A stretch of DNA of 34,413 nt from Candidatus Eiseniibacteriota bacterium (lineage in GTDB: Bacteria > Joyebacterota > Joyebacteria > Joyebacterales > Joyebacteraceae). Of this stretch, positions 261 through 27,733 are shown in pieces. The stretch is from contig JAUWLR010000014.1 in assembly GCA_030613615.1 (NCBI GenBank), forward strand, positions 1-34,413. Direction: 5' to 3'. A program made the translations under genes and the position numbers. Under the pieces are notes generated by a model. That model had not been told where the DNA came from, did no database searches, and saw only the letters and a list, made by a program, of their open reading frames with translations. Within the stretch, counting starts at the first letter, position 1; each line of letters starts with the position of its first letter.

Positions 261-2123
261 ATGCGGTGGTTTCTGAACGGGTTGGTGTGCCTTCTGGTGC
301 TGGCCGTCGGGCTTGTTTCCGCGGCCACTGCCGGGACGCTAGAGGACAAGGTCACGGAGTTCAAACTCGACAACGGCATGAAGTTCATCGTCATCGAGCG
401 TCACGAGGCCCCGGTCGCCTTCTGCGCCGTCGGGTTCAAGGTCGGCGCGATCTACGAACGACCCGGAATCACCGGCATCTCGCATCTCCTCGAGCACATG
501 CTGTTCAAGGGGACCGAGACGTTGGGTACGAAGGACTACGAGGCGGAGAAGAAGTTCCTCGACCGCGAGGACGAGCTGGCGGAACAGATCCGCGAGCTCA
601 TGCTGGAGATTGAGCCGTGGCGACTCGAGTACTTCGATGAGTACGTGAACGAGCTGACATCATCGTTCAGCGAGGAGGACCGCGAGACCATGGGCTCGGA
701 CCGCGCGCTCGAGCTCGAGCTTCTCGTCGAGCAGATGGAGGAGGTCGGGCCCGCCGACGACATGCGGTCGCTCTACGGTCTGCTCGAGGAGGGCGAGACC
801 GACTACTTCGATCTCTACCTCACGCTCAAGAGGACCGAGATGGGCCTCTACGACACACAGGCAGAGCACCGGGAGCTCATCATCTCGAACGAGCTGTGGG
901 AGACGTACGTGAACAACGGCTCGCAGATGCTGAACGCGGGCACGTCGAACGACGGCACGTTCTACTTCGCCTATCTGCCGGCGAATCGCCTCGAGCTCTT
1001 CATGCTCATGGAGTCGGACCGGATGGCCAACCCCGTCTTCCGCGAGTTCTACACGGAACGCGACGTCGTTATGGAAGAGATGAGGATGAGCCTGAACGAT
1101 CCTGAAGACGTCCTCTACTACTCCTTCCTGTCGACCGCCTACACGGCCAGCATGTACGGGGTGCCGGTCCTTGGATGGGCTTCTGACGTGACGATGATCA
1201 CCCGCACGGACCTTCAGGAGTACTTCGACCGCAACTACGCGCCGAACAATGCGGTGGGCTTCTTCGCCGGCGACCTCGATCCTGACGAGGTCAGGCGCTT
1301 CGCGAAGAAGTACTTCGGGGCGATACCGCGCGGGGAGGACCTTCCGGCGCTCACCACGCGTGAGCCGAAGCAGCAGGGCGAGCGCAGGGTCGTCGTGAAG
1401 CAGGACGCGAAGCCCGCTATGATGATCGGCTACCACATACCTGCCTCACCTCACCCCGACACGTATGCGCTGAGCGCGCTGCAGTCGATTCTCTCCGGTG
1501 GGCGGACGAGTCGGTTCTACAAGGGCATCTACGAGAAGCAGGGGCTGACCAGAGAGGCGCCGGACGCTTGGACGGGGCCGGGCGACCGGCTCGACCCGCT
1601 GTTCACGATCTCAGCCGACCCGAAGGACCCGCATACTCTTCCGGAGGTGGAAGCAGCGATCCTCTCAGAGCTAGAGCGCGTCAAGACCGAGCCCGTCAGC
1701 ATGCGCGAGCTAGAGCGCGTGTGGAACCAGGACGAGGCCTCGCTTGTCAGAGCCCTCGGTTCCAACATTGGTCTGGCCTTCCGCGTCGGCATGTATGAGG
1801 CCATGAGAGGGGACTGGCGGGCGCTGCTTACAGATATGGAACGCATGAAGCAGGTGACGCCCGAGGACATAATGAGGGTCGCGGAGAAGTACCTCACGGA
1901 GGAGAATCGCACGGTCGCCTGGCTGATCGAGACGGAGTCTGAAGGAGGCGACGAAGGCGAAGAGGGGCCCGATTTCCGCGCGATCATGATGTGGGTCCAG
2001 ACGCTGCCAGAAGAGGAGCAGCGGGAACTCATGGGGAAGTTCATGACGCTGGACGACGCGGGGAAGAAGGTCTTCGCCTGGGAGCTCTCGTCGAGGATGA
2101 AGGCGGAGCAGGAGAAGAGCTAG
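261..2123 (+). CDS. secreted M16 zinc metallopeptidase, catalytic subunit
   Basis: Predicted processing peptidase/insulinase-like enzyme (M16) that would cleave peptides in the periplasm or at the envelope. Residues 1-25 form a signal peptide. The inverted zinc motif HxxEH is intact (H75, E78, H79 in SHLLEHM), followed by the usual FKGTE. The likely third ligand is E251 in the ANRLELFMLMESDRM region. That lies about 172 residues after E78, where the family norm is about 75, so roughly 100 extra acidic, helix-prone residues (about 95-210) are inserted in the catalytic half. The C-terminal half (from about 370) is the second M16 domain. The start is the ATG at 261 behind AAGGGAGA. The downstream neighbour, 58 bp away, is an M16 protein without the zinc motif, so the two probably form the usual active/inactive heterodimer. 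Confidence 0.9.
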   Translation: MRWFLNGLVCLLVLAVGLVSAATAGTLEDKVTEFKLDNGMKFIVIERHEAPVAFCAVGFKVGAIYERPGITGISHLLEHMLFKGTETLGTKDYEAEKKFLDREDELAEQIRELMLEIEPWRLEYFDEYVNELTSSFSEEDRETMGSDRALELELLVEQMEEVGPADDMRSLYGLLEEGETDYFDLYLTLKRTEMGLYDTQAEHRELIISNELWETYVNNGSQMLNAGTSNDGTFYFAYLPANRLELFMLMESDRMANPVFREFYTERDVVMEEMRMSLNDPEDVLYYSFLSTAYTASMYGVPVLGWASDVTMITRTDLQEYFDRNYAPNNAVGFFAGDLDPDEVRRFAKKYFGAIPRGEDLPALTTREPKQQGERRVVVKQDAKPAMMIGYHIPASPHPDTYALSALQSILSGGRTSRFYKGIYEKQGLTREAPDAWTGPGDRLDPLFTISADPKDPHTLPEVEAAILSELERVKTEPVSMRELERVWNQDEASLVRALGSNIGLAFRVGMYEAMRGDWRALLTDMERMKQVTPEDIMRVAEKYLTEENRTVAWLIETESEGGDEGEEGPDFRAIMMWVQTLPEEEQRELMGKFMTLDDAGKKVFAWELSSRMKAEQEKS

Positions 2124-2181
2124 AGCCGGAACTGTCGGCGCGGCCTACCGCGCCTGTGATGAGAGAGACAAGGAGCCAATC

Positions 2182-3642
2182 ATGAAGAGACTTCTCACCA
2201 TCGGCCTGGTTCTTCTCGTCGCTGTCCTGTTTGTGGGGGCGGCGCAGGCCGAGAAGGTCAAGCACCCGAGCAAGCTCAAGTACCCGAAGCTCAAGCTGAC
2301 GACACCCGAGTATGAGGAACTGACGTTCGCGAACGGCATGACCGGTTTCCTGATCGAGGACCACGAGGTGCCGGTCGTCAACATGACGATGATCTTCGGC
2401 ACGGGCAGGCCGGCCGTGGACAAGGTCGGGCTCGGGGGACTGGCCGCCTGGACCATAAGGAACGGTGGCAGCGAGGACTGGCCGGGCGACAGGATCAACG
2501 AGGAGCTGGAGTTCGTCGACGCCTACGTGGAGGTCGGCCGCCCGGCGGGAGGCGGCGGGATGATGGGTCGCAGCCGCGGTCCCTCGGGAGACAGCCGCAG
2601 CACGAGCGTCAGCGTCAACTGCCTGAAGAAAGACCTCCCGCTCTGCCTGGAGATCATGAGCGAGCTGCTCGTTAGCCCGGCCCTCCCTGAGGAGAAGATC
2701 GAGCTCAGGCGCGAGACGATGCTCGAGAACATCCGACGCGAGAACGACGAGCCGCGCGGGATCGCCGGGCGAGAGCTGGCGAGAATCCTCTACAGCGACC
2801 ATCCGAAGGCGTGGCGGGCGACCGAGGAGACGGTGACCGCGATAACGCGCGACGACCTCATCGCGTACCAGCAGGCGTTCTTCCGCCCGAACAACGCCAT
2901 CATCGGGATCTCGGGCGATGTGACGAAGGACGAGATCATGGGGCTGCTCGACGAAGCCCTCGCGAGCTGGGAACAGGCGGAGGTCGTCATCGAGCCCGAG
3001 CCCGAGCTTCCCCTCACGTTCGAGCCGTCGGTCAACTACGTGTTCAAGGACATCGACCAGGGCGTCATCATGATCGGACACCTCGGCCTCAACAGCCGCG
3101 ACGAGAACCGCCCGGCGGTCCAGATAATGAACTTCATCCTTGGGGGAGGAAGTTTCACGTCCCGCATTACGCAGAAGGTGAGGACCGAAGAGGGCCTTGC
3201 GTACGCGGCATACTCTCGCTACTCGCACGATGCATGGACCTACGGCACGTTTGTTGCCTCTTCTCAGACGAGGTCCGACGCGACGGCACGGGCCGCGTCT
3301 CTCATTGTTGACCTGATCGTGGAGATGCAGGCCGAGGGACCGTCGGAGGAGGAGTTCGAGAACGCACGGGACGCGTACCTGAACAAGCGAGTGTTCGACT
3401 ACGACTCGAAGGCCGCGGTCGTTCGGCGGCTTGTCCAGCTGAAGTGGCAGGGCCGGCCTCTCGACACTCCCGAGCGGGACATCGAGACGATTGAGAATCT
3501 GACTCTCGACGACGTCAAGGCGGCGGCAGCCGAGTACCTGCATCCCGATGGGCTGGTCATGCTCTTCGTGGGTGATGCTGAGAAGTTCGAGCAGCCGCTG
3601 TCCAACTTCGGAGAGGTCAACGTCATCGAGCTGTCGGAGTAG
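2182..3642 (+). CDS. secreted M16 peptidase-like protein, non-catalytic partner
   Basis: A 486-residue M16 homologue with a signal peptide (residues 1-24, ending AQA). The HxxEH zinc motif is absent: the equivalent helix reads GLGGLAAWTIRNGG. The C-terminal half keeps the R/Y pair of the non-catalytic subunit (R334 and Y341 in KVRTEEGLAYA), which in known bacterial M16 heterodimers supports substrate binding by the active partner. A glycine-rich loop (GGGGMMGRSRG, about residues 118-130) sits where the active subunit has its catalytic-domain surface. The RBS AAGGAG at 2170-2175 is 6 nt from the ATG. It is almost certainly co-transcribed with the preceding gene and contributes to one enzyme. 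The physiological substrate is unknown. Confidence 0.87.
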   Translation: MKRLLTIGLVLLVAVLFVGAAQAEKVKHPSKLKYPKLKLTTPEYEELTFANGMTGFLIEDHEVPVVNMTMIFGTGRPAVDKVGLGGLAAWTIRNGGSEDWPGDRINEELEFVDAYVEVGRPAGGGGMMGRSRGPSGDSRSTSVSVNCLKKDLPLCLEIMSELLVSPALPEEKIELRRETMLENIRRENDEPRGIAGRELARILYSDHPKAWRATEETVTAITRDDLIAYQQAFFRPNNAIIGISGDVTKDEIMGLLDEALASWEQAEVVIEPEPELPLTFEPSVNYVFKDIDQGVIMIGHLGLNSRDENRPAVQIMNFILGGGSFTSRITQKVRTEEGLAYAAYSRYSHDAWTYGTFVASSQTRSDATARAASLIVDLIVEMQAEGPSEEEFENARDAYLNKRVFDYDSKAAVVRRLVQLKWQGRPLDTPERDIETIENLTLDDVKAAAAEYLHPDGLVMLFVGDAEKFEQPLSNFGEVNVIELSE

Positions 3643-3948
3643 CGGGAGGGCCAAGCCTCGGTTGTGCAGGATCAAGGCGGCGTTCGAGTAGACTTCGCTG
3701 AGCGCACATGGCAGCGCGTCACGCACTCGCATTCGGGCCCGTGAGGGGCGTTCGCCAACAGGCGGCCTCCCGCGGGTCCGGATTCGCGTACTTGACATAG
3801 GTGGCCCAGTCTGGTATCATGCTCGTGCCGGCTTCGTTTCACTTCGCGCGCCTCGGCTGGGAGGGCCAGAGGCCGCACCGAGGTGACGGGGAACCGGCGC
3901 AACTTTTGTGTTCACACGTCGTTCCCAGGCTCGGGGAGGTCCGGAAGC
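3643..3948 (+). other. intergenic region with promoter and structured leader
   Basis: This 306-bp gap separates the M16 pair from the capB operon. The left half (3643-3790) shows no gene, repeat or clear terminator. The right half holds the promoter at 3792-3820 and, downstream of it, a leader of about 120 nt. In the leader, CCTCGG (3851-3856) can pair with CCGAGG (3878-3883) around an inner GGCC/GGCC pairing. I do not recognise a known riboswitch class here. Confidence 0.5.
3792..3820 (+). promoter_or_regulatory. sigma-70-type promoter of the capB operon
   Basis: TTGACA at 3792-3797, a 17-bp spacer, then TATCAT at 3815-3820 preceded by TGG (extended -10, TGnTATCAT). The -35 matches consensus fully and the -10 matches 5 of 6 positions. 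Transcription would start near 3827, giving a leader of about 120 nt before capB. It stands out against otherwise GC-rich sequence. Confidence 0.75.
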
Positions 3949-5118
3949 ATGATCCTGGTGTTCCTGCTGGCCGTGGCATTCCTCATCTACGGCGTCGTGG
4001 AATACCGCGTGCATCTCGCCAACCTGCGTGCAATCCCCATCCGTGTTCACGTCAACGGCACCCGGGGCAAGTCCTCCGTCGCAAGGCTCATCGCGGCCGG
4101 TCTTCGGGCAGGGGGCATACGCACCGTGGCCAAGACCACCGGCTCCGCCGCCAGGTACATCCACCCGGACGGCGCCGAGGAACCCGTCTCAAGGCCAGGT
4201 CCACCTAATATCCGCGAACAGCTGGGCATCGTGAGGCGTTCCAGGCGCGAAGACGCCAGGGCTCTGGTCCTCGAGTGCATGGCCATCCGGCCCGATCTTC
4301 AGAGGCTCTGCGAGCACATGATCGTCAAGGCTACGGTCGGCGTCATCACGAACGCGCGCCCGGACCATCTGGACGTCATGGGTCCCACCGTGGACGACGT
4401 GGCGGTCGCCCTCGCCGGGACCGTTCCGACCGGAGGCGCGCTCTTCACGTCCGAGCACGCGCGGCTCCAGACCTTCGCGGAGCAAGCAGTGGCACAGGGC
4501 ACCGAGGTGCATGAGGTGCTGCCCGAGGCGGCCGACCAGAGCCTCTCTCGCGGCTTCAGGTACGTCGAGCACCTCGAGAACGTCGTACTGGCGCTCGCCG
4601 TCTGCGAGCATCTTGGCGTTCCGTCCGACACCGCCGTCAAGGGCATGCGGGAAGCGACGCCCGACCCGGGCGCGCTCTTCATTCACGAGGTCCACGAGGG
4701 CGGCAAGGAGCTCGAGTTCGTGAGCGCCTTCGCGGCGAACGACCGCGACTCGATCGTGGCCATCTGGAAGACACTGAATCCGCACTCTGACCCCGGTCGG
4801 ACCGTGATCGTCATCGCCAGTATGCGAGCCGACCGTCCGGACCGCGTCTTCCAGTTCGGCGAGATCATCGCCGACGACCTTCCCGCCGACCACTACATCC
4901 TGACCGGCGGAATGACGCATCCCGTGAAGTCGATAGCTAGGAGCCGCGGGCTCGGGGCCGAGAAGATCCACGACCTCGGCGGGAAGAGTGCCGAGGAGGT
5001 CTTCACGAAGGTCGTAGAATTGACGCCCGAGCGCGCGATCGTCGTGGGCGTGGGCAACATCGGTGGCACGGGCGGACAGATACTGTCGTTGTTCCGAGAG
5101 AGGAGCAAGAGAGAGTGA
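3949..5118 (+). CDS. capB: poly-gamma-glutamate synthase subunit CapB/PgsB
   Basis: ATP-dependent amide ligase of the Mur-ligase fold that polymerises glutamate through gamma-carboxyl linkages at the inner face of the cytoplasmic membrane. An N-terminal membrane segment (1-18) is followed by the P-loop GTRGKSS (37-43) and the family motif TNARPDHLDVMG. I chose ATG 3949 (389 aa) over an in-frame ATG 22 codons upstream. GGGGAGG at 3933-3939 fits the later start, and it begins directly with the membrane helix as CapB proteins do. It overlaps capC by 4 bp (GTGA). Together with capC and pgsW it forms a poly-gamma-glutamate locus. No capA homologue is seen nearby. Confidence 0.93.
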   Translation: MILVFLLAVAFLIYGVVEYRVHLANLRAIPIRVHVNGTRGKSSVARLIAAGLRAGGIRTVAKTTGSAARYIHPDGAEEPVSRPGPPNIREQLGIVRRSRREDARALVLECMAIRPDLQRLCEHMIVKATVGVITNARPDHLDVMGPTVDDVAVALAGTVPTGGALFTSEHARLQTFAEQAVAQGTEVHEVLPEAADQSLSRGFRYVEHLENVVLALAVCEHLGVPSDTAVKGMREATPDPGALFIHEVHEGGKELEFVSAFAANDRDSIVAIWKTLNPHSDPGRTVIVIASMRADRPDRVFQFGEIIADDLPADHYILTGGMTHPVKSIARSRGLGAEKIHDLGGKSAEEVFTKVVELTPERAIVVGVGNIGGTGGQILSLFRERSKRE

Positions 5119-5576
5119 TACCTATTGCGGTAGGGCTTGGGCTCGTGATGAGCCTCATCTTCTCGGAGGCCTTCGGACTCGCGGCCGGTGGCATGGTCGT
5201 CCCGGGCTACATCGCCCTGGCCATGGCCGAGCCCTGGCGAGTCGTCGGAACGATCGCGGCCGCCATCGTCACGTTTCTTATCGTCCGCCTGCTCGGCCGG
5301 GTGATGCTCCTCTACGGGAAGAGGCACCTGGTCATGGTCATCCTCATCGGGTTCATCTGCGGCCATCTGACGAGGGTCTTCTTCGGCAGGCCCGAGCTCC
5401 CGGAGTTCCTGAGCTTCGAGGCCGTCGGCTACATTATCCCCGGACTGATCGCCTACTGGATGGAAAGGCAGGGCGCGGTCGCAACGTTGATGGCGATGCT
5501 GATGGCGGCCGTCCTGGTCCGACTCGTTCTCATCGTCGTCGTCGGAGGAGTGCCGATTGAAATACCGTCCTGGTAG
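5115..5576 (+). CDS. capC: poly-gamma-glutamate synthase membrane subunit CapC/PgsC
   Basis: A 153-residue polytopic membrane protein of the CapC family, the partner of CapB in the membrane synthase. About four to five hydrophobic segments are visible, with the family's early GGMVVPGYIA motif (about residues 25-34) and a later GYIIPGLIAYW. The length matches known CapC (about 150 aa). Translation starts at GTG 5115, overlapping the capB stop (GTGA), so synthesis is coupled to capB. Its 3' end overlaps pgsW by 20 bp. Its role in chain elongation or translocation is known only in outline for the family. Confidence 0.93.
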   Translation: MIPIAVGLGLVMSLIFSEAFGLAAGGMVVPGYIALAMAEPWRVVGTIAAAIVTFLIVRLLGRVMLLYGKRHLVMVILIGFICGHLTRVFFGRPELPEFLSFEAVGYIIPGLIAYWMERQGAVATLMAMLMAAVLVRLVLIVVVGGVPIEIPSW

Positions 5577-6657
5577 TGTTCACGTGATGAGTCTCGTAGC
5601 GCTTGCCATCGTCGGGCTGGCGCTCCTCGCGGTAGCCGAGCGCTCGAAAGACCCGGTGATGCAGGAGTACTTCAGCGAGAAGATGGAAGCGGTGACCCTG
5701 ACGCGTGCGGGGCTCGATGCCATTCGGGAGGCACGGCTGGGGCTGGGTGGGCCGATAGACGTCGTCAACGACCCGAACGAGACGGGACTCATCGGTCGCG
5801 AACTCTCGCCCATCACCTCGAGTAGAGGCTCTCACGAGCAGAAGCTCCGTGCGCTCGACCCTAATCTCGCGGCGGTGTTCTTGGAACTTCTCAAGCGTGG
5901 CCGTGTCGGGGAGGGCGACCTGGTGGCGGTCGCTGTCACGGGGGCGTTCCCGATGCTGAACGCGGCGGTGCTGGTGGCCATCGAGACGCTGGGCGCCACG
6001 CCCGTCACGATCACGTCGGTGGGCTCGTCGATGTGGGGCGCGAACGACCCCGACCTCACGTGGCTGGACATGGAGTCGGTGCTGATAGACGCGGGTCTCC
6101 TGAAGCACCGCTCCGTCGCGGCGTCGCGGGGTGGTGGCGATGACCGAGGACGGGGGCTTTCGCCGGAGGGACGCGCGCTGGTCGACAGCGCGGCCGTGAG
6201 GAACGGCGTTCCTCTCATTGACGAGCCGACGCTCGACGAGAGCATCGCTCGCAGAATGGACATATACGAGGAAGCAGCGGACGGAGACGCCTACTCGGCC
6301 TACGTCAACATCGGAGGTGGTCAGGGCAGCATGGGAAGCTCGCAGGTCTATCGTCTTCTCAGGCCCGGCCTAGCAAGAAACCTCGGCACGAAGAACTTCC
6401 CGAGGCGGGGAACGCTGGTGCGCATGGCTCAGCAGGGCATGCCCGTGCTGCACGTGCCCAGCGCCGACCATTTCATCGAGCGTTATGACCTTGCGGCGGA
6501 GCCGACGCCGCTTCCCGACATCGGGACCGGCGGGATCTTCTTCAGAGACAGGTACAATGTCCCGCTCGCCGGGGTTCTGGCAGTCCTCTACGGATTTCTG
6601 ATCTTCGTGGTCGTCAGGATCGACCTGAAGCACTACCTGTTCCGCAAGCCGCAGTAG
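5557..6657 (+). CDS. pgsW: poly-gamma-glutamate system protein PgsW
   Basis: A 366-residue protein of the family found beside capB/capC where capA is absent. One hydrophobic segment lies at the N-terminus (about residues 11-28) and one near the C-terminus (about 332-352), so the central domain is probably periplasmic and anchored at both ends. A conserved-looking glycine-rich motif, NIGGGQGSMGSS, lies near residue 255. The start is TTG at 5557, set by GGAGGAG at 5544-5550 with 6-nt spacing. An ATG at 5587 is possible but has no ribosome binding site. The gene overlaps capC by 20 bp. The exact biochemical role of the family is not established; the context indicates polymer synthesis or release. 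Confidence 0.82.
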   Translation: MKYRPGSVHVMSLVALAIVGLALLAVAERSKDPVMQEYFSEKMEAVTLTRAGLDAIREARLGLGGPIDVVNDPNETGLIGRELSPITSSRGSHEQKLRALDPNLAAVFLELLKRGRVGEGDLVAVAVTGAFPMLNAAVLVAIETLGATPVTITSVGSSMWGANDPDLTWLDMESVLIDAGLLKHRSVAASRGGGDDRGRGLSPEGRALVDSAAVRNGVPLIDEPTLDESIARRMDIYEEAADGDAYSAYVNIGGGQGSMGSSQVYRLLRPGLARNLGTKNFPRRGTLVRMAQQGMPVLHVPSADHFIERYDLAAEPTPLPDIGTGGIFFRDRYNVPLAGVLAVLYGFLIFVVVRIDLKHYLFRKPQ

Positions 6658-6676
6658 AACGCGGCGGCTCTGGCTG

Positions 6677-6697
6677 CCGCCCGGGAGATCCGGGCGG
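6677..6697 (+). other. hairpin between pgsW and the next operon gene
   Basis: CCGCCCGG (6677-6684) and CCGGGCGG (6690-6697) form a perfect 8-bp GC-rich stem with a 5-nt loop, in the 62-nt gap between pgsW and the downstream envelope gene. No T-run follows, so it is not a standard intrinsic terminator. It could be an mRNA processing or stability element that sets the ratio of synthase to accessory proteins. Structure is seen; function is inferred. Confidence 0.45.
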
Positions 6698-6719
6698 ACG
6701 AGCCCGGACCGGAGGCGCA

Positions 6720-7619
6720 ATGAGAAGAACTCTCACCCTTGGCGTGATGGTCGCGGTGCTGGCCGCGGTCGTAGCGCAGGTCTCCGCCGCGGCCGACTGG
6801 AAGTCGTTCAGGCCGGCCGACTACTCGGCGAAGGTCAGGATTTCGGTCGACGACAAGAGGCTGACGTACTACCGCTTCACAGCAGACGAGCCTCTGACCT
6901 TCTCCGTCGAGGGGCCGACGCGCGTCAAGATCCTGACGCGCGTCCGTGTGCCCAATGACCGCGAGACGGTGGAGTACGGCGTGTCCATCTCTCGCGACGG
7001 CGTCCACGTCGAAACGCTCGAGAAGGAAGCCTACCCGAAGGAGTCCGCGTTCTACGTCGCGTTCAACACCTTCCGCCCGGGCGTCATCCGTCGCATCTAC
7101 ATCGACGTCCCGACGGGGCGGCACGGGTACGAGCTCAGGGCCGTCGGTGGGCATTCCGTGGACGCGCGCCTCTTCGAGTCTGCCAAGTCGAAACCGTCGC
7201 TCGTGTCCATCGCGCCGCGAGACTACGACTCGGTCGAGACGCTCTACTATCGCGACAAGGAACTGACCTACTACCTGATGACGAAGGACGCGCTCGTCGT
7301 GCTCGACGTCATCGGACCCACGAGCATCAAGGTCAATACCAGGCTGCTCTACGACGCCACGATGCTGGGAAGACAGACCTACATCGTCGGTGTCCGGGCG
7401 CCGGGTGCTCCCGAGGACCTCTACAAGATCGACGCGGGGCCGTCGCAGACCGTCGTGTGCCGGGACCGCGACGACGTGATACCCGGGGCGCTTCGTCACT
7501 TCGTGCTCGAGGTCCCGAAGGGAGCGCACACGTACGAGTTCCGGCTGGTGGACGCCGCGGCGGGCGGGCTCGCCGTCAAGTTCTACATACCACGCGGGGA
7601 CCTGACGAATGAGCCGTAA
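6720..7619 (+). CDS. unrecognised periplasmic protein with duplicated beta domain
   Basis: A 299-residue protein with a signal peptide (residues 1-23, ending VSAAA). I recognise no named family. The mature part consists of two related beta-rich repeats. Each begins with a tyrosine-rich strand (LTYYRFTADEPLTF and LTYYLMTKDALVVL), continues with EGPTRVKI or IGPTSIKV, and ends with a PxGxHxYE/Y strand (DVPTGRHGYEL and EVPKGAHTYEF). A third copy of this repeat begins the next gene. The RBS GGAGG at 6711-6715 precedes the ATG. It lies 62 nt after pgsW and overlaps the next gene by 11 bp. I infer a carbohydrate- or polymer-contacting periplasmic protein of the poly-gamma-glutamate export system; this is context only. 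Confidence 0.8.
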   Translation: MRRTLTLGVMVAVLAAVVAQVSAAADWKSFRPADYSAKVRISVDDKRLTYYRFTADEPLTFSVEGPTRVKILTRVRVPNDRETVEYGVSISRDGVHVETLEKEAYPKESAFYVAFNTFRPGVIRRIYIDVPTGRHGYELRAVGGHSVDARLFESAKSKPSLVSIAPRDYDSVETLYYRDKELTYYLMTKDALVVLDVIGPTSIKVNTRLLYDATMLGRQTYIVGVRAPGAPEDLYKIDAGPSQTVVCRDRDDVIPGALRHFVLEVPKGAHTYEFRLVDAAAGGLAVKFYIPRGDLTNEP

Positions 7620-9093
7620 TGCCCGGGCGCTCCTGGCGTCGTCGACCCTTGTCGCCTGCCTTCTGTTCGCGCTTCCGCTGCCCGCCGCCCGCGTGGTTCC
7701 CGTGTGCGCGCCCGAGCCGGTGGAACTCGAGATCTCCGGAAAGGTATACAGGTACTTCCCGCTGACCGCCGGTTCTCCGCTGTCGTTCACCGTTGAGGGT
7801 CCCGCCGTCTTCGAGCCGATATTGCGCTGGAGATTCGAGGGTGGGGCGTCGGACGTCGATGTCGACGTCGTGTTTACGCTCGATGGGAGAGTGATGTGGC
7901 ATCAGGTGTTCACGACGGCGGCGGGAGCGGCCGGCTACCCGGCGCAGCCCGACTGGCGGGGAGGGAAGCCCAAGAGGGCGCCGCTCGATATCCCGTCCGG
8001 AGAACACACCGTCGAGCTCACGCTCGTGGCGCCTACGCTGGGCGTCCTCGACGTCAATCCCGTCGTGCGTGCTCCCGATGTCCTGCCGTGGCGGGTGGCC
8101 TGGCGGGGCGAGTTCGGGGTAGCGTATGTCAGCAACATCTTCAGATACTCGGACGCCGATGTCGACGACTTCCTGGACGGCAGGCATGAGGAGAAGTACC
8201 CGGTTGAGACCACGGACGACGTTCGCCTCGAGCCGTCGTTCGACCTGTCGCTTGTCAGGGAGGAGCCCGGCAGGCGCACAACGGAGTTGAGACTCTCGGC
8301 TGACGTACGACTGCCGGTGATCAACAGCGAGAAGAGCTTCGCTAAACTGGGTGCCCGTGTGAAGGAAACCAGGACGCGGTTCGCGTATGTCCTCGTCGAC
8401 TACTACGCCATTCCCAGCTACCACATCCGGTATCTGTGGGACGGAGACGCTGACGGCGACGACCCGTACCGTTCGTGCGACTACCGGAAGCATTCCGTGC
8501 GGGTCGAGGTCGGAAGCGACAGGTCGCTGCCGGTGGATTTCATTGCGCGCTTGAAGTACGACTACATGGGGTACAACCAGAACTTCGTCGAGTACGACTC
8601 CGATGCCTGGACGACCGGACTGGTCGCCATCGTGCGGCCGGTGCGCGGGGTCCGCGTGGATCTCGGCTACGCTCTTCGGAAGCTCACGGCCCTCGGCTAC
8701 GACGAGGTGGGGGAGACGGGGGGTGCATCGGACGACAGCGACATCAGCTACGAGCAGGACGAGTACGCTCTGAAAGTGCGGTGGGACGTGGGACGTGTGC
8801 GGGATGTCCGGACTGTCCTGACGCTCGGCGCCAGGCTTCAAGTGCGGTTCTACCAGACGAGCAAGAGCGTCGAGGACGACCCCTACCACGCGGGCCGGGA
8901 GGACACCTACTGGACGTTCTCGGCCCGAAGCACCCACCAACTGACCGAGGAAACGGCTCTGGAGGTCTTCTACGAGCACCGGCGGCGGAGCTCGAGATCG
9001 GACTACAACGAAGAACTGGGATCTTCCAAGGACTACACGGCGGACCGGGTCGGCATACGGCTCATTTTCGAGGGAGAGCGATTCCTTGACTGA
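7609..9093 (+). CDS. probable outer-membrane beta-barrel with N-terminal beta domain
   Basis: A 494-residue exported protein (signal peptide about 1-27). Residues about 40-160 hold one more copy of the beta repeat seen twice in the upstream gene (YRYFPLTAGSPLSFTVEGP ... IPSGEHTVEL). From about residue 165 the sequence turns into a long run of alternating hydrophobic/polar strands with aromatic girdles and acidic turns (for example the turn DGDADGDDPYRS). This is typical of an outer-membrane barrel of perhaps 12-14 strands. The last strand (VGIRLIFEGERFLD) does not end in the classical terminal phenylalanine. The start ATG 7609 lies inside the previous gene behind CGGGGA. Its position in the capB operon suggests an outer-membrane channel or anchor for poly-gamma-glutamate. 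No named family was recognised. Confidence 0.75.
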   Translation: MSRNARALLASSTLVACLLFALPLPAARVVPVCAPEPVELEISGKVYRYFPLTAGSPLSFTVEGPAVFEPILRWRFEGGASDVDVDVVFTLDGRVMWHQVFTTAAGAAGYPAQPDWRGGKPKRAPLDIPSGEHTVELTLVAPTLGVLDVNPVVRAPDVLPWRVAWRGEFGVAYVSNIFRYSDADVDDFLDGRHEEKYPVETTDDVRLEPSFDLSLVREEPGRRTTELRLSADVRLPVINSEKSFAKLGARVKETRTRFAYVLVDYYAIPSYHIRYLWDGDADGDDPYRSCDYRKHSVRVEVGSDRSLPVDFIARLKYDYMGYNQNFVEYDSDAWTTGLVAIVRPVRGVRVDLGYALRKLTALGYDEVGETGGASDDSDISYEQDEYALKVRWDVGRVRDVRTVLTLGARLQVRFYQTSKSVEDDPYHAGREDTYWTFSARSTHQLTEETALEVFYEHRRRSSRSDYNEELGSSKDYTADRVGIRLIFEGERFLD

Positions 9094-9114
9094 ACGCGTA
9101 AGTACTGGTATAAT
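9086..9114 (+). promoter_or_regulatory. consensus extended -10 promoter inside the lipoprotein gene start
   Basis: TTGACT at 9086-9091, a 17-bp spacer, then a perfect TATAAT at 9109-9114 preceded by TGG (TGnTATAAT). By sequence it is the strongest promoter in the window. It begins exactly at the TTG that also serves as the likely start codon of the lipoprotein gene. Transcripts from it (start near 9121) would lack that start codon. It may therefore drive a shorter product from GTG 9137, or mainly the downstream peptidase gene. Confidence 0.7.
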
Positions 9115-10129
9115 AAGCAGTAAGCACCTTCACGGTGTGGTGACGCTGGTGGTCGCTGCGGCCGTGCTCGTGTTTGCGGCGGGGTGTGCCCAGAAGGGCA
9201 GCCCTGTCGAGCCGGATGACGGCGGCTACAGGATCGTGGGTACGCTGGCGATAGCGGGGTACGCCGAGGACGTGGAAGTCGCAGGCACGCTGTGTCTCGT
9301 GGCTGCCGGCCAGGGCGGGCTGGTGCTCGTTGACGTGTCCGACCCCGCGAGTCCCGAGTATCTATCCACGGCGGTGACGTCCTACCCGGCCATGGGCTGC
9401 GCGTACGTGGCCAGCGATTCGCTCGCGTTCGCCGCGATCGGGGCGCAGGGCATTTACGTCTACGACGTGAGCGATCTCTTGAACCCGGTCTGGCAGAGCA
9501 ACGGTCAGGGGACCTTCACGAGAGACGTCGTCACGCGCGAGGTGACGCCTGGTGATTACCACGAGGTTCTAACGGCGGATGCCTACGGTATCCGGACGCA
9601 GGAGTGCTACTACTACGAGGCGCTTGACACGTGGTACTTCCGCCAAGCCGTTGCCGAGGGGGCTGCTGGAGTCGCGCGCGGCATATGTGCGCACGGAAAC
9701 CTGGCGCTTCTCGCAATCGAGGAGCTCGGGCTCTCGATCTACGACGTGACCGACGTGACGAACGTACTGTACCTGGGGGGAGTAGATACACCTGGGGAGG
9801 CGCGGGCGGTGGCGGCCGAAGGCAGCTACGCCTACGTCGCCGACTGGCGCAAAGGACTCCAGGTCGTGGATATCTCCGACCCGAGCAGCCCTGAGATAGT
9901 CGCGAGCGCTGACATGGACGGTCTGGCGGACGGGATCTGCTACTACGGCGGCAAGGTCTACGTCGCCGCTCACACTGAGGGACTGAGGGTCTTCGACGTG
10001 AGCGATCCGACGGACCCGCGGGCGGCGGGCTTCCTCGAGACGCCGTTCGCAAACGACGTGTTCGTCACAGATTCGTATGTATACGTGGCCGACCGGGACT
10101 GGGGCCTGGTGGTCGCTGAAGAGGAATAG
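9086..10129 (+). CDS. LVIVD-repeat beta-propeller lipoprotein
   Basis: A 347-residue predicted lipoprotein. A hydrophobic leader ends in the lipobox VFAAGC (lipidated Cys at residue 34). The mature protein consists of about seven repeats of roughly 42 residues with the LVIVD-type signature (LVLVDVSDPASPEYL, LQVVDISDPSSPEIV, LRVFDVSDPTDPRAA), so it should form a seven-bladed surface beta-propeller. The third blade is divergent. The start TTG 9086 is supported by AGGGAGAG at 9071-9078 and by an 8-bp overlap with the barrel gene. GTG 9137 is an alternative, giving a shorter leader without basic residues. It is likely an outer-membrane lipoprotein binding protein or polymer partners, but its function is unknown. 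Confidence 0.83.
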   Translation: MTERVSTGIISSKHLHGVVTLVVAAAVLVFAAGCAQKGSPVEPDDGGYRIVGTLAIAGYAEDVEVAGTLCLVAAGQGGLVLVDVSDPASPEYLSTAVTSYPAMGCAYVASDSLAFAAIGAQGIYVYDVSDLLNPVWQSNGQGTFTRDVVTREVTPGDYHEVLTADAYGIRTQECYYYEALDTWYFRQAVAEGAAGVARGICAHGNLALLAIEELGLSIYDVTDVTNVLYLGGVDTPGEARAVAAEGSYAYVADWRKGLQVVDISDPSSPEIVASADMDGLADGICYYGGKVYVAAHTEGLRVFDVSDPTDPRAAGFLETPFANDVFVTDSYVYVADRDWGLVVAEEE

Positions 10130-10187: not shown

Positions 10188-13100
10188 GTGACACGCTCAA
10201 TCGCAGTCGCCGTTCTTCTCGTACTTCTCGTCTTCTCGTTCGCCTCCGCAAGGGAGTGGGTCCCCTTCCGTGACGCACCTGTCGCGGAGGAGGTGGCGAC
10301 CAGGATCATCTCAACAGACATTTCTACGACCGTGATTGAGGTCGAGATTCCCGGCATGCTGGTCGAGCCGGCGCTCGAGGGCTTCCCTAGCGCCGTTGAT
10401 CTCGCGATCCCGGGCGCTCGCAATCTCAGCAGCCCGGGCATGCCCGACCTGCCCGTGCTGTCCTATCTCGTGGCGATTCCGAGCTACGGAGACATCGAAC
10501 TTGAGGTCGTGGCTCTCGAGGAGCGCGTGCTCACCGGGTACGACGTTGCCCCGGCGCGCCCGTTCGAGCTCGAGGGGCGTGAGCCGATGGAGGCCGCTCC
10601 CGACGCGTCGGTCTACGCCACCGACGCGTTCTATCCGGCTGACGTCGCTTCCGTGGGTGAGCCCGGTGTCTTCAGGGACCTTCGGCTCGTGTCCGTTCGG
10701 GTCAACCCCGTCAGATACAACCCCGTCACGCGCGAGCTCTGGGTCGCTGAGAGACTGAAGCTCAGGCTCAGCTCCACGAGCGAGCAGGGCGCGAACCCGA
10801 AGCGCGTGTCCAGGGATTTCCGTTCCGCGGCCTTCGAGCCCATCTATGCGGCCGTCGTCGACAACTACGATGAGCTTCCGCGGGCCGAGGTCCGCCGGGG
10901 TTCGTATCTCGTCATCACTGTCGACGATTATGCCGTCGCGATGGGGCCGTTCGTCGAGTGGAAGCGGCAGCGCGGTTACGAGACCGAGCTTGTGACGCTC
11001 TCGCAGATCGGCGCGAGCCCGACGAACCAGGACATCAAGGACTACATACAGAACGCCTACGACACGTGGCCGAATCCACCCGAGTACGTGCTTCTGGTCG
11101 GCGACAGTACGATGAGTGGCAGCTACGGGACGTTGCCGTGCTGGTACGTGCCCGGCGTGCCGTTCGAGCAGGTGGTGGATCATCCCTACGCGGAGCTTGA
11201 CGGCGGCGACTATTTCCCCGACGTGATAGTTGGAAGGATGTCGGTCGACAACCCGGTCGAGGCCACCGTGGCGACGCTCAAGGTCATGTCGTACGAGCGC
11301 GACTGCGACGGGGCGAACAACGACTGGTACAAGAACGCGCTGATGGTCGCCGGCAACTACGGGGCAACGCCGCCGCCGACGTCTCCGCGGCAGACAGTGC
11401 TCAGGGTGCGCGAGCTGCTGCTCGATTGCGGCTACGCCCAGGTGGACACGGTCATGTACCCACCCTACATCGCGCCGAATCCGATCGGTTCCATCATCGA
11501 CTCGGGTGTGGGCTTCGTCAACTACCGCGGCTGGGGCGCGGCCCAGGGCTGGCACTACCCCGAGTACTACGTCGATGACATCAACGCTCTGTCGAACGGC
11601 GGCATGCTGCCTGTGATGACGAGTTTCGTCTGCGGAACCGCCAACTGGGAGAGTTGGGGCTTCGACCCTTGCTTCGGCGAGGCGTGGATTCGTTCGGGCT
11701 CGCCCGGCTATCTCAAGGGTGGCCCGGTCATGTGCGGGCCCAGCGACTACAACACCCACACGCGCTGGAACAACGCCGTGGGCATCGGCTTCTACCAGGG
11801 CATGCTCTACGAGGACCTCGACCACTTTGGTCAGGCGTTGGTGCGCGCGAAGTTCGAGGTCTGGAAGTGGTTCATCGACGAGCGGGTGGGAGAGGATTGG
11901 GTCGACTACTACTTCAACATCTACAGCATCATCGGCGATCCCGAGCTGTGGATGAGGTTCGACTCGCCGAGCAGCTTCACGGTCAGCCACGAAGCGACCG
12001 TGGACCTCGGACAGAACTTCCTCGAGGTCAACGTGACCGATTCCGGCGGGGACGTCGTCCCCGGTGCTGAGGTCATCCTCTACAAAGAGAACGAGTTCAT
12101 AGAGTCGCGCGTCCTGACCGGCGACAGCAGGATCGTCGTGCCGATGCCCGCCGAGACGGCGGGAACCGTGCACGTCACCGTGTGCGGAAGCGAGTTCAAG
12201 CCTTACACGGGCGAGGCCGCGGTCGGTACGCCTGCGGGGTACGTCGGGTACTACGGGCACGCGGTTGACGACGACAGCTCGGGACTGAGCAGCGGCAACG
12301 GCGACGGCGTCGTGAATCCCGGCGAGACTATCGAACTTGCGGTGACACTCAAGAACTACGGCACCGCGACCGTCTCGGGCGTCAGCTGCTCGTTTGACGT
12401 CCTGGAGTATTCGTCCTGGGTGGACGTGGTCACTCCGCAGAGCGCTACCTACGGGAGCATATCCGGTGGTGGTACGGCGTCCGGCAGCCAGCCGTTCGTG
12501 TTCGACGTGCTGGACGGTTGCCCGGACGGCGAGGAACTCGTGTTCCTCCTCGAGGCGACCGACGCCTCTCGCGCGTCCTACGAGAGCGAAGTTCGCATCA
12601 CCGTCGGTGCTCCGGCGATGTCGTACTATGCGCTGACCATCAGCGGCGACGGCGTCTTGGATCCGGGTGAGACGGCGACGCTGACCGTTACGCTGGCGAA
12701 CGAGGGTCCACGAGGCGCGAGCTCGGTCGCGGGCACGCTTCGTGCGCCCACCAGCGGCTTGACCGCCGGCGACGACACGGGCTACTGGGGCACCATTGCG
12801 GCGAGCGGAATGGCCTCGAACTCCGGCAACACGTTCCAGGTAACGGCGGCGGGGAACGTCGCTGTCGGCCACGAGTTCCTGCTGGCCATCGATCTCACGG
12901 GCGACGACGGGCTCTCGCAGTTCGTGGTCTTCCCGCTGGTCGTGGGAACGGCCACGGGCACGGATCCCGGTGGTCCGGACGACCACGGCTACTACTGCTA
13001 CGACGACACGGACACGGGCTATGCTGAGGCGCCGGCCTACTCCTGGGTCGAGCTCGACCCGTCACACGGCGGCAGCGGCACCGACCTCGGCCTGGGCTAC

Positions 13101-13964
13101 GATGAGATGGTCGACGTCGCTCTGCCGTTCGCGTTCAGATACTGCGGCGAGGACTTCGGCACCATCGGCGTCTGCAGCAACGGCAACATCGGTATGGGGT
13201 CCCAGCCCGAGTGGGAGACTCAGCCGAGGAACACGCCCATCGGCGCGTCACTGGGGCCGGCCGGAATGGTCGCGCCCTTCTGGGACGACCTCAATCCGAA
13301 CGCCGGTGGCAAGGTGCTCTACAAGAACCTCGGCAGCGGTCGGTTCGCGGTCGAGTGGAGCCGCGTGCAGACCACTTATGTGGATACGATCAGCCTCGTG
13401 CCCTACGAGCAGACGTTCGAGCTCATCCTCTACGACCAGGACGTGTATCCGACCGAGTCGGGCGACGGCGAGATCCTGTTCCAGTACCACACCATCGCCA
13501 ACGCAGACACGGCGAACGGCGCCACTGTCGGCGTCGAGAATCTCAACCAGACCGACGGGCTGGAGTACAGCTTCTTCAGAATGTATCCGGACCACGCGGC
13601 CCCTCTCGCGAACGGCAGGGCGATCAAGTTCACGACCGACCCGCCTGACGGATATCCCTCCACGGGAATCGACGACGAGGTGACGCTGGGCGTGCGGGTC
13701 CTTGGCAACAGGCCGAACCCGTTCAACCCGGTGACGAAGATAGCGTTCTCGATGCCCGCAACGGCCGAGGCCAAGCTGGCGGTCTTCGATATCGCCGGAC
13801 GGCGCGTGGCCACCCTGGTTGACAGAGAGGTAGAGGCCGGCCGCCATGAGGTGGTCTGGAACGGCACCAACGAAGCAGGCGAATCGGTCGCGAGCGGAGT
13901 GTACTTCTCTCGCCTCACGGCAATGGGAGAGGAACACTCGGCCAAGATGGTGCTCCTGAAGTGA
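10188..13964 (+). CDS. secreted C25 gingipain-like peptidase with C-terminal sorting domain
   Basis: A 1258-residue exported protein. The signal peptide covers about 1-22, followed by an N-terminal propeptide-like domain to about 230 and a C25-type caspase-fold domain (about 245-600). Then come beta-sandwich (CARDB/Ig-like) repeats (about 610-930), a nidogen-like domain (about 950-1150) and a FlgD-Ig-like C-terminal domain starting RPNPFNPVTKI and ending AKMVLLK, typical of type IX secretion cargo. The expected nucleophile is C482 in TSFVCGTANWE. The position of the catalytic histidine, normally in GHG, reads NYRGWG with W449, exactly 33 residues before the cysteine as in gingipain RgpB (His211/Cys244). 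Activity is therefore doubtful unless H456 substitutes. The start GTG 10188 has GGGGAAGGAG at 10171-10180. A longer frame upstream overlaps the lipoprotein gene and lacks a signal-peptide start. Confidence 0.88.
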   Translation: MTRSIAVAVLLVLLVFSFASAREWVPFRDAPVAEEVATRIISTDISTTVIEVEIPGMLVEPALEGFPSAVDLAIPGARNLSSPGMPDLPVLSYLVAIPSYGDIELEVVALEERVLTGYDVAPARPFELEGREPMEAAPDASVYATDAFYPADVASVGEPGVFRDLRLVSVRVNPVRYNPVTRELWVAERLKLRLSSTSEQGANPKRVSRDFRSAAFEPIYAAVVDNYDELPRAEVRRGSYLVITVDDYAVAMGPFVEWKRQRGYETELVTLSQIGASPTNQDIKDYIQNAYDTWPNPPEYVLLVGDSTMSGSYGTLPCWYVPGVPFEQVVDHPYAELDGGDYFPDVIVGRMSVDNPVEATVATLKVMSYERDCDGANNDWYKNALMVAGNYGATPPPTSPRQTVLRVRELLLDCGYAQVDTVMYPPYIAPNPIGSIIDSGVGFVNYRGWGAAQGWHYPEYYVDDINALSNGGMLPVMTSFVCGTANWESWGFDPCFGEAWIRSGSPGYLKGGPVMCGPSDYNTHTRWNNAVGIGFYQGMLYEDLDHFGQALVRAKFEVWKWFIDERVGEDWVDYYFNIYSIIGDPELWMRFDSPSSFTVSHEATVDLGQNFLEVNVTDSGGDVVPGAEVILYKENEFIESRVLTGDSRIVVPMPAETAGTVHVTVCGSEFKPYTGEAAVGTPAGYVGYYGHAVDDDSSGLSSGNGDGVVNPGETIELAVTLKNYGTATVSGVSCSFDVLEYSSWVDVVTPQSATYGSISGGGTASGSQPFVFDVLDGCPDGEELVFLLEATDASRASYESEVRITVGAPAMSYYALTISGDGVLDPGETATLTVTLANEGPRGASSVAGTLRAPTSGLTAGDDTGYWGTIAASGMASNSGNTFQVTAAGNVAVGHEFLLAIDLTGDDGLSQFVVFPLVVGTATGTDPGGPDDHGYYCYDDTDTGYAEAPAYSWVELDPSHGGSGTDLGLGYDEMVDVALPFAFRYCGEDFGTIGVCSNGNIGMGSQPEWETQPRNTPIGASLGPAGMVAPFWDDLNPNAGGKVLYKNLGSGRFAVEWSRVQTTYVDTISLVPYEQTFELILYDQDVYPTESGDGEILFQYHTIANADTANGATVGVENLNQTDGLEYSFFRMYPDHAAPLANGRAIKFTTDPPDGYPSTGIDDEVTLGVRVLGNRPNPFNPVTKIAFSMPATAEAKLAVFDIAGRRVATLVDREVEAGRHEVVWNGTNEAGESVASGVYFSRLTAMGEEHSAKMVLLK

Positions 13965-14064: not shown

Positions 14065-15630
14065 ATGAGACCCGCAAGTCAGGCAGCGCTGCGACCCGCG
14101 ATCCTGTTCGTGATCGCCGCACTGGTCGTACTGGCGTCCGCGCCCACGGCGTTGGCGCTCGACGAGCGCTACCACACGAAGGAAGAAGTCCACGCGGAGA
14201 TCCTCGCGCTCGCCGCGAACTACCCCGCGATCGTCAGGGTAGACACGCTGGGCCAGTCGATGGAGGACGGGCTGGATATCTGGGGTGTGAAGCTCTCTGA
14301 CAACGTGGGGACAAATGAGGATGAGCCGGTCGTTCTCTACAACGGCATCCATCACGCCGAGGAGGTCCTGGGTCTCGAGGTCATCATGTGGATGCTCGAC
14401 GAGATGACCGCGGCCTATGGCGTCAATGACACGGTGACGCAGTGGATCGACGACCTCGAGATCTGGTTCATACCCATTCTGAACCCCGAGGGGCACGATA
14501 TCGTCACGTCTGAGATCGACACCATCTGGCGGAAGAACAAGTTCGACAACAACGACAACGGTGTGTTCGATCTCGATTATGACGGCGTCGACATCAATCA
14601 TAACTACGACTTCAACTGGGATCAGGGCGGAAGCACCAACCCCGCCTCCGAGTACTACCGTGGTCCGTCCGCGGGCTCGGAGAGCGAGACGCAGCTGATG
14701 TGCGACTTCTGTCTCGAGCACAAGCCGCTCTTCTCACTCAACTACCACAGCCCCTTGAGTTCCCTGGGTGACCTGGTCTACTACCCGTGGTACTGGCCGC
14801 TCCAGGGGTTCTCGCCGGACCACCACACGATCTTCCCGATAGTGACCGAGCTCGTCTCGCGGACTCTCACCGAGGAGGACGTGCCGTACACGGCCGAGTA
14901 CGGCTACGCTGACGCCGGCAAGGCCCGGAACTGGCAGTACGGCATCGTCGGGACCATCGGGCTCACAATGGAGATCTTAAGCCAGCTCTGCCAGCCCGCC
15001 GGCCACAGGGTCGACGGTATCTGCGAGCGCGTCTCGACAGGTTCGTACTATCTGCTGGAGCGAGCCGCGGGGCCGGGTCTCACCGGCCACGTCACGGACT
15101 CCGCGGCGCGGGCGCCGCTCGTGGCCGAGGTGGAGATCCTTGAGAACACGTCGGGGGACCTGACGCCACGCACGACCGACCCGAACTACGGGCGGTACTG
15201 GCGCCCGCTCAAGGCCGGGACCTACACCGTGGAGTTCTCCGCCTTCGGGTATGACACGCAGACGTTCACCGATGTGGTCGTGGACACGACGGGATGGACC
15301 GTTCTCGATTGCGCGCTCGAGTCATGGGTTGGCGTGCCGGAGGACGAGATCAATGCGCCGCGCATCACGGGCGTCTCTCCGAATCCCTTCAGCGGGAGTG
15401 CCACGGTGAGCTTCACAGCGCCGGGCGCGACGCTGGCCGGTGTCGAGATCTACTCGGCGGCCGGGAGACTGATCGCGCGGTGCGAGGGGGAGCTTCAAGC
15501 CAACGGGGAGAGCACCGTCGTCTGGGACGGCCGCCGGCTCTCGGGGCAGCCCGCGGCATCCGGTGTCTACTTCGCCAGGCTCATGACCGACGCCGGCGAG
15601 GACACGGTGAAGATGGTCTACATACGGTAG
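14065..15630 (+). CDS. secreted M14 zinc carboxypeptidase with C-terminal sorting domain
   Basis: A 521-residue exported metallocarboxypeptidase homologue (signal peptide about 1-31). Zinc ligands are visible: H97 and E100 (HxxE in NGIHHAEEVLG) and H228 (SLNYHSP). The catalytic Glu is E303 (GLTMEIL), and R156 (WRKN) matches the transition-state arginine. The usual NRN motif that binds the substrate carboxylate reads N178-H179-N180, so the arginine is replaced by histidine. A carboxypeptidase-regulatory-like beta domain (about 335-415) and a FlgD-Ig-like sorting domain (about 435-521, ISGVSPNPF-like start, ending VKMVYIR) follow. The ATG at 14065 is preceded by GGGAGG with 8-nt spacing. It probably trims peptides at the cell surface beside the C25 protein. 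Confidence 0.9.
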   Translation: MRPASQAALRPAILFVIAALVVLASAPTALALDERYHTKEEVHAEILALAANYPAIVRVDTLGQSMEDGLDIWGVKLSDNVGTNEDEPVVLYNGIHHAEEVLGLEVIMWMLDEMTAAYGVNDTVTQWIDDLEIWFIPILNPEGHDIVTSEIDTIWRKNKFDNNDNGVFDLDYDGVDINHNYDFNWDQGGSTNPASEYYRGPSAGSESETQLMCDFCLEHKPLFSLNYHSPLSSLGDLVYYPWYWPLQGFSPDHHTIFPIVTELVSRTLTEEDVPYTAEYGYADAGKARNWQYGIVGTIGLTMEILSQLCQPAGHRVDGICERVSTGSYYLLERAAGPGLTGHVTDSAARAPLVAEVEILENTSGDLTPRTTDPNYGRYWRPLKAGTYTVEFSAFGYDTQTFTDVVVDTTGWTVLDCALESWVGVPEDEINAPRITGVSPNPFSGSATVSFTAPGATLAGVEIYSAAGRLIARCEGELQANGESTVVWDGRRLSGQPAASGVYFARLMTDAGEDTVKMVYIR

Positions 15631-27300: not shown

Positions 27301-27733
27301 CGGTTCGCCGGAACTCGTCGGTGACCCCGAAGTTCGGATCGACCCCAGCCTCGACGGGCCGCTCCTTGAGCAGGGTCGAGCAGAACCCGTGTATCGTGCT
27401 GACCTGCGCGCGGTCGATCTGGTGAAGGGCCCTGGTCAGGATCGCGGCCTCGCTGGCGCGGGACTCGTCCTTCTCAGCCGCGCGCGCGGCGGCCTCGAGC
27501 TCCGCCCTCAGTCGTATCTTGAGCTCGCCGGCGGCCTTCTCGGTGAACGTGATCGCCACGATGCGCGAGATGGCCACCCCTGACATGATGAGGGCCAGCA
27601 GGCGGTCGACGAGCACGGTTGTCTTCCCCGTGCCCGCGCCAGCCTCGACGAGATAGGTGTGAGCGAGGCCGTCGCCCTTTCCACTGGCGAGCGCCCTGTG
27701 CTCCGCGTCGACTGTCGATCTGTCGCTCATCAC
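24338..27733 (-). CDS. addA: ATP-dependent helicase/nuclease subunit A (AddA)
   Basis: UvrD/RecB-family helicase with a C-terminal nuclease, half of the AddAB complex that resects double-strand DNA ends for RecA recombination. Visible motifs are Walker A AGAGTGKTT (about 31-39), motif Ia ITFTEKAA, Walker B LLDEFQDTDPLQ (about 364), motif III VGDPKQSIYRFRRAD, motif V TIHKAKGLEFPVV, motif VI LLYVGTTRARD, and a PD-(D/E)XK nuclease core GKIDLVF...VIVDYKTN (about 1040-1065). At 1131 aa it is a normal length. The start is GTG 27733 (GTGA overlap with addB) or the adjacent ATG 27730. It is co-transcribed and translationally coupled with addB. Confidence 0.92.
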   Translation of the reverse strand: MMSDRSTVDAEHRALASGKGDGLAHTYLVEAGAGTGKTTVLVDRLLALIMSGVAISRIVAITFTEKAAGELKIRLRAELEAAARAAEKDESRASEAAILTRALHQIDRAQVSTIHGFCSTLLKERPVEAGVDPNFGVTDEFRRTVILDTVWDSWLREQFSESLPACVADAEALGHGLDRIRELALELVDQRDLLDMVPGPVDVEDVGALAADLVSEAREFAELARTDCTDSDDGAVGDIEEFVRQAEMIEHVPDEGRAAYALRQVNPRPVGRGKQGNWSDGVLADIKARAKELRARQAAHLSLLSHNASVGLVQWLRGFLEAYEREKSRMGLLDFEDLLVKARDLLRDNLEVREDFKRAFDHVLLDEFQDTDPLQCELAFFLCEVEGGGAASWNDVELEPGKLFLVGDPKQSIYRFRRADIETYERAREIIAGSGQVLELVENFRTRPEIVESVNAVFEGIMHRPEDGGSYQPEYAGLSAFRERAHVGPGVVVLPPAGPLDDLSADEVRRAEARATTALIADATESGAMRVFDRELKDWRPVELRDIAVLFHRTNALDAYEEAFGDHGLEYRMAGGKKFYARREVRELATVLAAIENPHNLAAVVGALRTPFFGASDEDILLHRHRAGTLSYISNESSGIAAVDDAMAILRKLHYDRSAKGTPQLIRDLFGRTNALELFLLKPTGEQRHANLVKVVEIADQLTRDGTLSFGGFVRWLADVQQLTPQESESPMSEEGDDFVRMLTIHKAKGLEFPVVVLADLAHYRARDDSMIVNRDIGNLEFGLGPSENRLATTRYDEFRELEAHRRDAELIRLLYVGTTRARDALIVPWFAGGKTKGAGLLEHLDILWKSATEPVADLAGAAKEPGPVTFDTVSLDLDTGKRRPARLKVEEAAEIDPAGTVAARERAEWRAWLGGYGDRHHRPAAIASPSSAKLDEDAPIVSRSGAGTASTLSPGVTGADIGTVVHEVMEKLDLATPGDVAEIARAVALAKGLPSETADEVTSIIVKGFKSNVITRACAASKVWRELPFCIARDGGTIEGKIDLVFEEADGLVIVDYKTNLFDNDDTSALREHYRAQAEAYGLALSAVSDRPVKEVVLLFMRGPREESIPVDADPESVERGLAALVAAAR

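Follow-up and report, generated by a model that had tools for sequence, protein, structure and literature searches.

Predictions of poly-gamma-glutamate capsules extend to most phyla, including many whose cells have two membranes. The standard detection model, CapsuleFinder, treats CapB and CapC as mandatory and CapA as accessory for this capsule and names no outer-membrane component; according to the same work, two-membraned bacteria require at least one additional protein for the outer-membrane step (PMC5542703). A CapB-CapC-CapA operon was reported for the Cloacimonadota, and the outer membrane is not mentioned there (PMC13082233). In the literature searched, which includes no bioRxiv preprints and lacks many articles behind subscriptions, no outer-membrane exporter for poly-gamma-glutamate is described, in line with the sequence-only reading of the present DNA, which could name no machinery for this step.

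The locus studied here lies on one contig of a 2.87-Mb assembly of Candidatus Eisenbacteria; this contig, analysed over its whole length of 34,413 nt, is referred to as the window. The locus shares with CapBCA / PgsBCA of Bacillus the order of capB and capC, whose products belong to the same curated families in both. In contrast to Bacillus, its third gene encodes PgsW instead of CapA, and genes for a periplasmic protein (P5), an outer-membrane barrel protein and an LVIVD lipoprotein follow. With the Cloacimonadota operon it has in common the poly-gamma-glutamate genes and the origin in a candidate phylum, the cells there being Gram-negative-staining; it differs in that CapA is reported as the third gene of that operon and no outer-membrane gene is mentioned (PMC13082233).

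Organization of the operon

The core of the locus consists of six plus-strand open reading frames arranged head to tail. CapB/PgsB, the ligase of poly-gamma-glutamate synthase, is encoded at 3949..5118 (TIGR04012, 422.4 bits versus a cut-off of 222.7, E 1e-126) and overlaps by 4 nt with the gene of the membrane protein CapC/PgsC at 5115..5576 (TIGR04011, 127.7 bits versus 96.45, E 3.5e-37; PF14102, E 3e-34). Hence, adjacent genes exceed the cut-offs of both the PgsB and the PgsC equivalog models. The PgsW-type protein follows at 5557..6657 with an overlap of 20 nt and matches TIGR04332, a subfamily-level model, with 279.7 bits versus a cut-off of 100 (E 2.7e-83). It features hydrophobic windows at 8 and 335, near both ends, and a weaker third one at 122; judged by this pattern, the bulk of PgsW is probably periplasmic. 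The only gap among the six genes, 62 nt, separates pgsW from the P5 gene at 6720..7619. The barrel gene (7609..9093) overlaps by 11 nt with the P5 gene and by 8 nt with the LVIVD gene (9086..10129). The latter encodes a β-propeller with four repeats (PF08309, 114.8 bits versus 20.2, E 1e-33) and a probable lipoprotein motif, VFAAGC.

No CapA (PGA_cap) match occurs in the operon, and two PGA_cap proteins are encoded elsewhere in the same genome. On another contig of this genome (G000:C262, 14273-18474), Poly_export (Wza-type) and PGA_cap (CapA-type) domains lie approximately 3.5 kb apart. In a different genome, a PGA_cap domain occurs in a 993-aa open frame a few kilobases downstream of capC-pgsW-P5-barrel (G159:C1, 1001246-1009005). 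The absence of CapA from the operon, together with the mere subfamily level of TIGR04332 and a searched literature that gives no product for any PgsW locus, would suit a CapB/CapC/PgsW type that makes a different amide-linked polymer or modifies another substrate, which the downstream module then serves. Such a product is, however, very improbable given how far CapB and CapC exceed their equivalog cut-offs.

A sigma-70-like promoter site with an extended -10 element, TTGACA-N17-TATCAT, is located on the plus strand at 3792..3820 and agrees with the consensus in 11/12 positions; in the 10.7 kb scanned, 1.5 sites matching in 9/12 positions or more would be expected by chance. Relatives share the capB start at 3949. 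A second promoter-like site, TTGACT-N17-TATAAT (11/12), overlaps the start of the LVIVD gene at 9086-9114 and could be an intra-operon transcript start or a chance occurrence.

Within the same GTDB family, capC is present in 14 of the 20 genomes examined, and all contigs that are long enough carry the fixed order CapB-CapC-PgsW-P5-barrel-LVIVD-C25 peptidase-M14 carboxypeptidase. In the window, the C25 (gingipain-type) peptidase is encoded on the plus strand at 10188..13964 (PF01364, E 1.5e-59; the frame is open from 10077 and the start at 10188 is guessed) and the M14 zinc carboxypeptidase, likewise on the plus strand, at 14065..15630 (PF00246, E 1.6e-45). Since both peptidase genes keep their place across the family, the conserved unit exceeds six genes. 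The barrel is only approximately 50% identical between genera of the family, so the shared gene order reflects conservation rather than recent divergence alone. The family genomes G013 and G019 contain the barrel without pgsW, and in both the contigs end inside the operon.

The sequence-only reading had described a six-gene operon in which capB, capC and pgsW overlap mutually and the remaining genes follow on one strand with small gaps or overlaps, behind one promoter. The coordinates and the promoter site bear this out and all six frames are real, but the boundary was drawn too short, as the C25 and M14 genes belong to the unit. The same reading had called the synthase genes fused to an outer-membrane module; this holds in the sense of one operon and of a P5-type domain on the N-terminus of the barrel, and in no other sense.

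Both peptidases end in a FlgD_ig tail of the sort borne by type IX cargo. As an SprA homologue is also encoded in the genome, both are probably secreted. Any involvement of either in handling the polymer is conjectural. The M14 gene is linked to the module in the own family only. The LVIVD gene adjoins the barrel gene in 9 of the 24 barrel genomes outside the family, four of which have the barrel away from capBC. Two M16 peptidase genes lie upstream of capB at 261-3642, likewise in several other genera of the family. Farther along the window, at 24338-30930 on the minus strand, a UvrD-type helicase with a PD-(D/E)XK nuclease domain is encoded beside an AddB-like protein, forming an AddAB-type pair.

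P5 and the barrel protein

P5 is a secreted periplasmic protein of 299 aa and consists of two copies of one all-β domain. It matches no Pfam or NCBIfam family above cut-off. The duplication shows in a match between the two halves (BLAST E 1e-14; hhalign probability 99%), and a domain of the same type heads the barrel protein of the window (E 6e-12; hhalign probability 98.5%). P5 is basic in most lineages, with a pI above 8 in 19/24 and a median of 9.65; some members, a few from the own family among them, have a P5 that is near neutral or acidic. The AlphaFold2 model, based on a four-sequence alignment, is poor (pLDDT 47.5), and the P5 profile gives chance matches only against PDB sequences. 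A kinship to the Ig-like domain of MtxA, seen at E 7e-4 in two relatives, was rejected, as it was not seen in eight full-length relatives. In genome G004 (L004 / L033), the P5 gene is apparently frameshifted near L004:2324-2328, with the halves in different frames.

The barrel protein comprises 494 aa and, like P5, matches no Pfam or NCBIfam family above cut-off. Its AlphaFold model, again from a four-sequence alignment, features the all-β P5-type domain at residues ~29-150 followed by 14 long strands at residues 162-492 (pLDDT 69.9, pTM 0.55). CymA and OmpG are 14-stranded monomeric porins. In a Foldseek search of the PDB, CymA was the top match (E 1e-9), with OmpG lower down (E 3e-6 to 5e-6); the protein that had been taken for a probable barrel is thus predicted as a porin-like one. 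At the sequence level, the barrel profile yields chance matches only against PDB sequences and none to OmpG or CymA. Some barrel relatives match OMP_b-brl, Porin_4, BBP2_2 or EpsL. The N-terminal P5-type domain is absent from most barrels outside the family and present in genomes G077 and G290. In the predicted strands, outward residues are mostly hydrophobic and inward residues polar, with many invariant arginines. A search of the model for a basic, polyanion-selective lumen was negative, as charges on the inward face nearly cancel out; the barrel as a whole is acidic (median pI 5.4).

Pfam detects neither a Poly_export (PF02563) nor a TPR domain in P5 or the barrel, whose N-terminal domain is all-β. 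The genome encodes four Poly_export (Wza-type) proteins, which could carry the polymer and thereby leave the barrel and P5 to hold the finished chain at the outer membrane, like Wzi in group 1 capsules. Anchoring of this kind is the main rival to export. β-Sandwich domains and an LVIVD propeller are suited to binding, and the co-occurrence with PgsW described below would fit equally. However, none of the four Poly_export genes is on this contig and the barrel resembles open 14-stranded porins, so that we consider anchoring with another crossing route unlikely.

Co-occurrence with pgsW and phylogenetic distribution

One set of 386 genomes served for the searches for the barrel, for PgsW and for CapC as well as for a repeat search with a 33-member barrel profile; P5 was surveyed with a 24-member profile over 356 genomes. 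A barrel match was counted as strong at E below 1e-70. Outside the own family, PgsW occurs in 36/366 genomes and a strong barrel in 24/366, and all 24 of these, from 18 families, contain PgsW. None of the 330 pgsW-less genomes outside the family has a strong barrel. The association has a Fisher p of 5e-29 by genome and approximately 1e-20 by family (the number of 225 pgsW-less families being an estimate), values that overstate the number of independent events because descent is shared. Eight pgsW-less genomes gave weak barrel matches (E 1e-6 to 7e-4), which were treated as generic barrels and not counted.

P5 tracks pgsW likewise and, outside the family, lies immediately 3' of it in 18 of the 36 genomes that have pgsW; in 13 the barrel comes immediately after P5. 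Co-occurrence is retained in eight genomes with the barrel at a locus separate from capBC-pgsW, and in three more the barrel is on a different contig or several kilobases off. The two downstream families, expected from the sequence alone to recur beside capBC-pgsW in relatives, thus accompany it in unrelated genomes as well. The pattern is not universal among pgsW genomes: in 12 of those outside the family, the barrel is undetectable despite BamA, so the step is achievable otherwise or the product differs there. BamA was found in 40/40 genomes tested, barrel-bearing or not. Therefore, a second membrane must be crossed in all of them, and the barrel contrast is not one of one versus two membranes.

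In the PgsW tree, barrel-bearing loci cluster together with one exception, genome G374, which is barrel-negative and has P5 beside pgsW. The barrel label needs two changes, versus a mean of 10.7 in shuffles. The barrel group is drawn open and supported by 94/88; hence, a single origin of the barrel module within the PgsW lineage is likely, not proven. Two changes also mean that few independent events stand behind the link, as would be expected of unrelated envelope genes kept together by common descent. This is the least probable reading and scarcely to be credited: the pair is missing from the 330 pgsW-less genomes, it stays with pgsW when genes are scattered, and four family members of at least 90% completeness lack pgsW and the barrel together.

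Other PgsW lineages of two-membraned bacteria are without the barrel. In one of them (Cetobacterium, G173), DUF6305 and a permease-like gene adjoin pgsW. Fusobacteriota have an outer membrane. Cetobacterium somerae thus matches the present locus in having the same three genes, pgsB-pgsC-pgsW, in an outer-membrane-bearing bacterium; they are carried on a 664-kb plasmid (NZ_CP143320.1; L104 2472-9879; L091 6425-9556). It differs in its neighbors, which are DUF6305, a DctM-type permease, an AstE-like enzyme and ggt, with no P5 or barrel annotated adjacent. The DUF6305/permease set looks like a second set of PgsW partners, one without the barrel. Metallocarboxypeptidase-type enzymes occur beside pgsBCW in two unrelated settings—the M14 enzyme of the window and the AstE/AspA-like enzyme at L104 6228-7361—and might trim gamma-glutamyl chains.

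The Cetobacterium neighborhood bears on a further alternative, namely that the porin imports gamma-glutamyl oligomers or gives passage to fragments released by the M14 and C25 enzymes. The association with PgsW would suit this alternative, like anchoring or a different product, as well as it does export. The porins found as best structural matches, CymA and OmpG, serve uptake; a secreted M14 carboxypeptidase lies downstream in the own family; and in Cetobacterium pgsBCW sits with a DctM-type permease, ggt and an AstE-like enzyme. Yet the barrel comes after synthesis genes, the M14 linkage is confined to one family and the permease-bearing lineages are those without the barrel. We regard uptake or turnover as unlikely, and as somewhat less probable than anchoring.

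Proposed export route and comparison with known systems

We infer a role of the module in exporting or anchoring the polymer. Export is the best reading because the pair occurs only with PgsW and behind pgsW, and because it joins a periplasmic β-domain protein to a porin-like barrel with which it has a domain in common. The basic P5 of most lineages and the clustering of barrel-bearing loci in the PgsW tree speak for it as well. Against it stand a lumen charge that is not clearly basic, the near-neutral or acidic P5 of some members, the 12 pgsW genomes outside the family in which the barrel is undetectable, the Wza-type proteins of the own genome, and the moderate quality of the barrel model and poor quality of the P5 model. 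On balance, we put the chances slightly better than even that the locus equips a two-membraned bacterium with a poly-gamma-glutamate system in which the gamma-glutamyl polymer has a dedicated export route from the periplasm to the outer membrane. The more specific claim—that the barrel and P5 form a dedicated trans-envelope exporter of gamma-glutamyl polyamide, representing a class of outer-membrane conduit without sequence relationship to known polysaccharide exporters, acquired approximately once and present in at least 19 families—is evenly balanced.

In the export route, CapB and CapC would make the polymer at the inner membrane, with the second membrane still to pass, and the membrane-anchored PgsW would pass it onward. 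The tandem β domains of P5 may hold the polyanion, guide it across the periplasm and dock onto the counterpart domain at the barrel entrance, the barrel itself being the putative pore by which the chain exits. The two peptidases, C25 and M14, and the LVIVD lipoprotein would have their place on the cell surface and may contribute to assembly or trimming. The locus thereby supplies candidates for the outer-membrane part missing from the detection model, as well as profiles that are searchable in any genome and that split pgsW systems into barrel-bearing and barrel-less ones.

Compared with CymA and OmpG, the predicted barrel has the same strand number and fold. It differs from these porins in an identity of only 10-11% in the structural alignment and no sequence match, in the extra N-terminal β domain and in its tie to a polymer synthase operon. 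The synthase-dependent systems of PgaA, BcsC and AlgE, as well as Wza, share with the present module the proposed outer-membrane passage of a polymer made at the inner membrane. In contrast to these, the module manages without TPR or Poly_export domains, and the polymer would be a polyamide rather than a polysaccharide.
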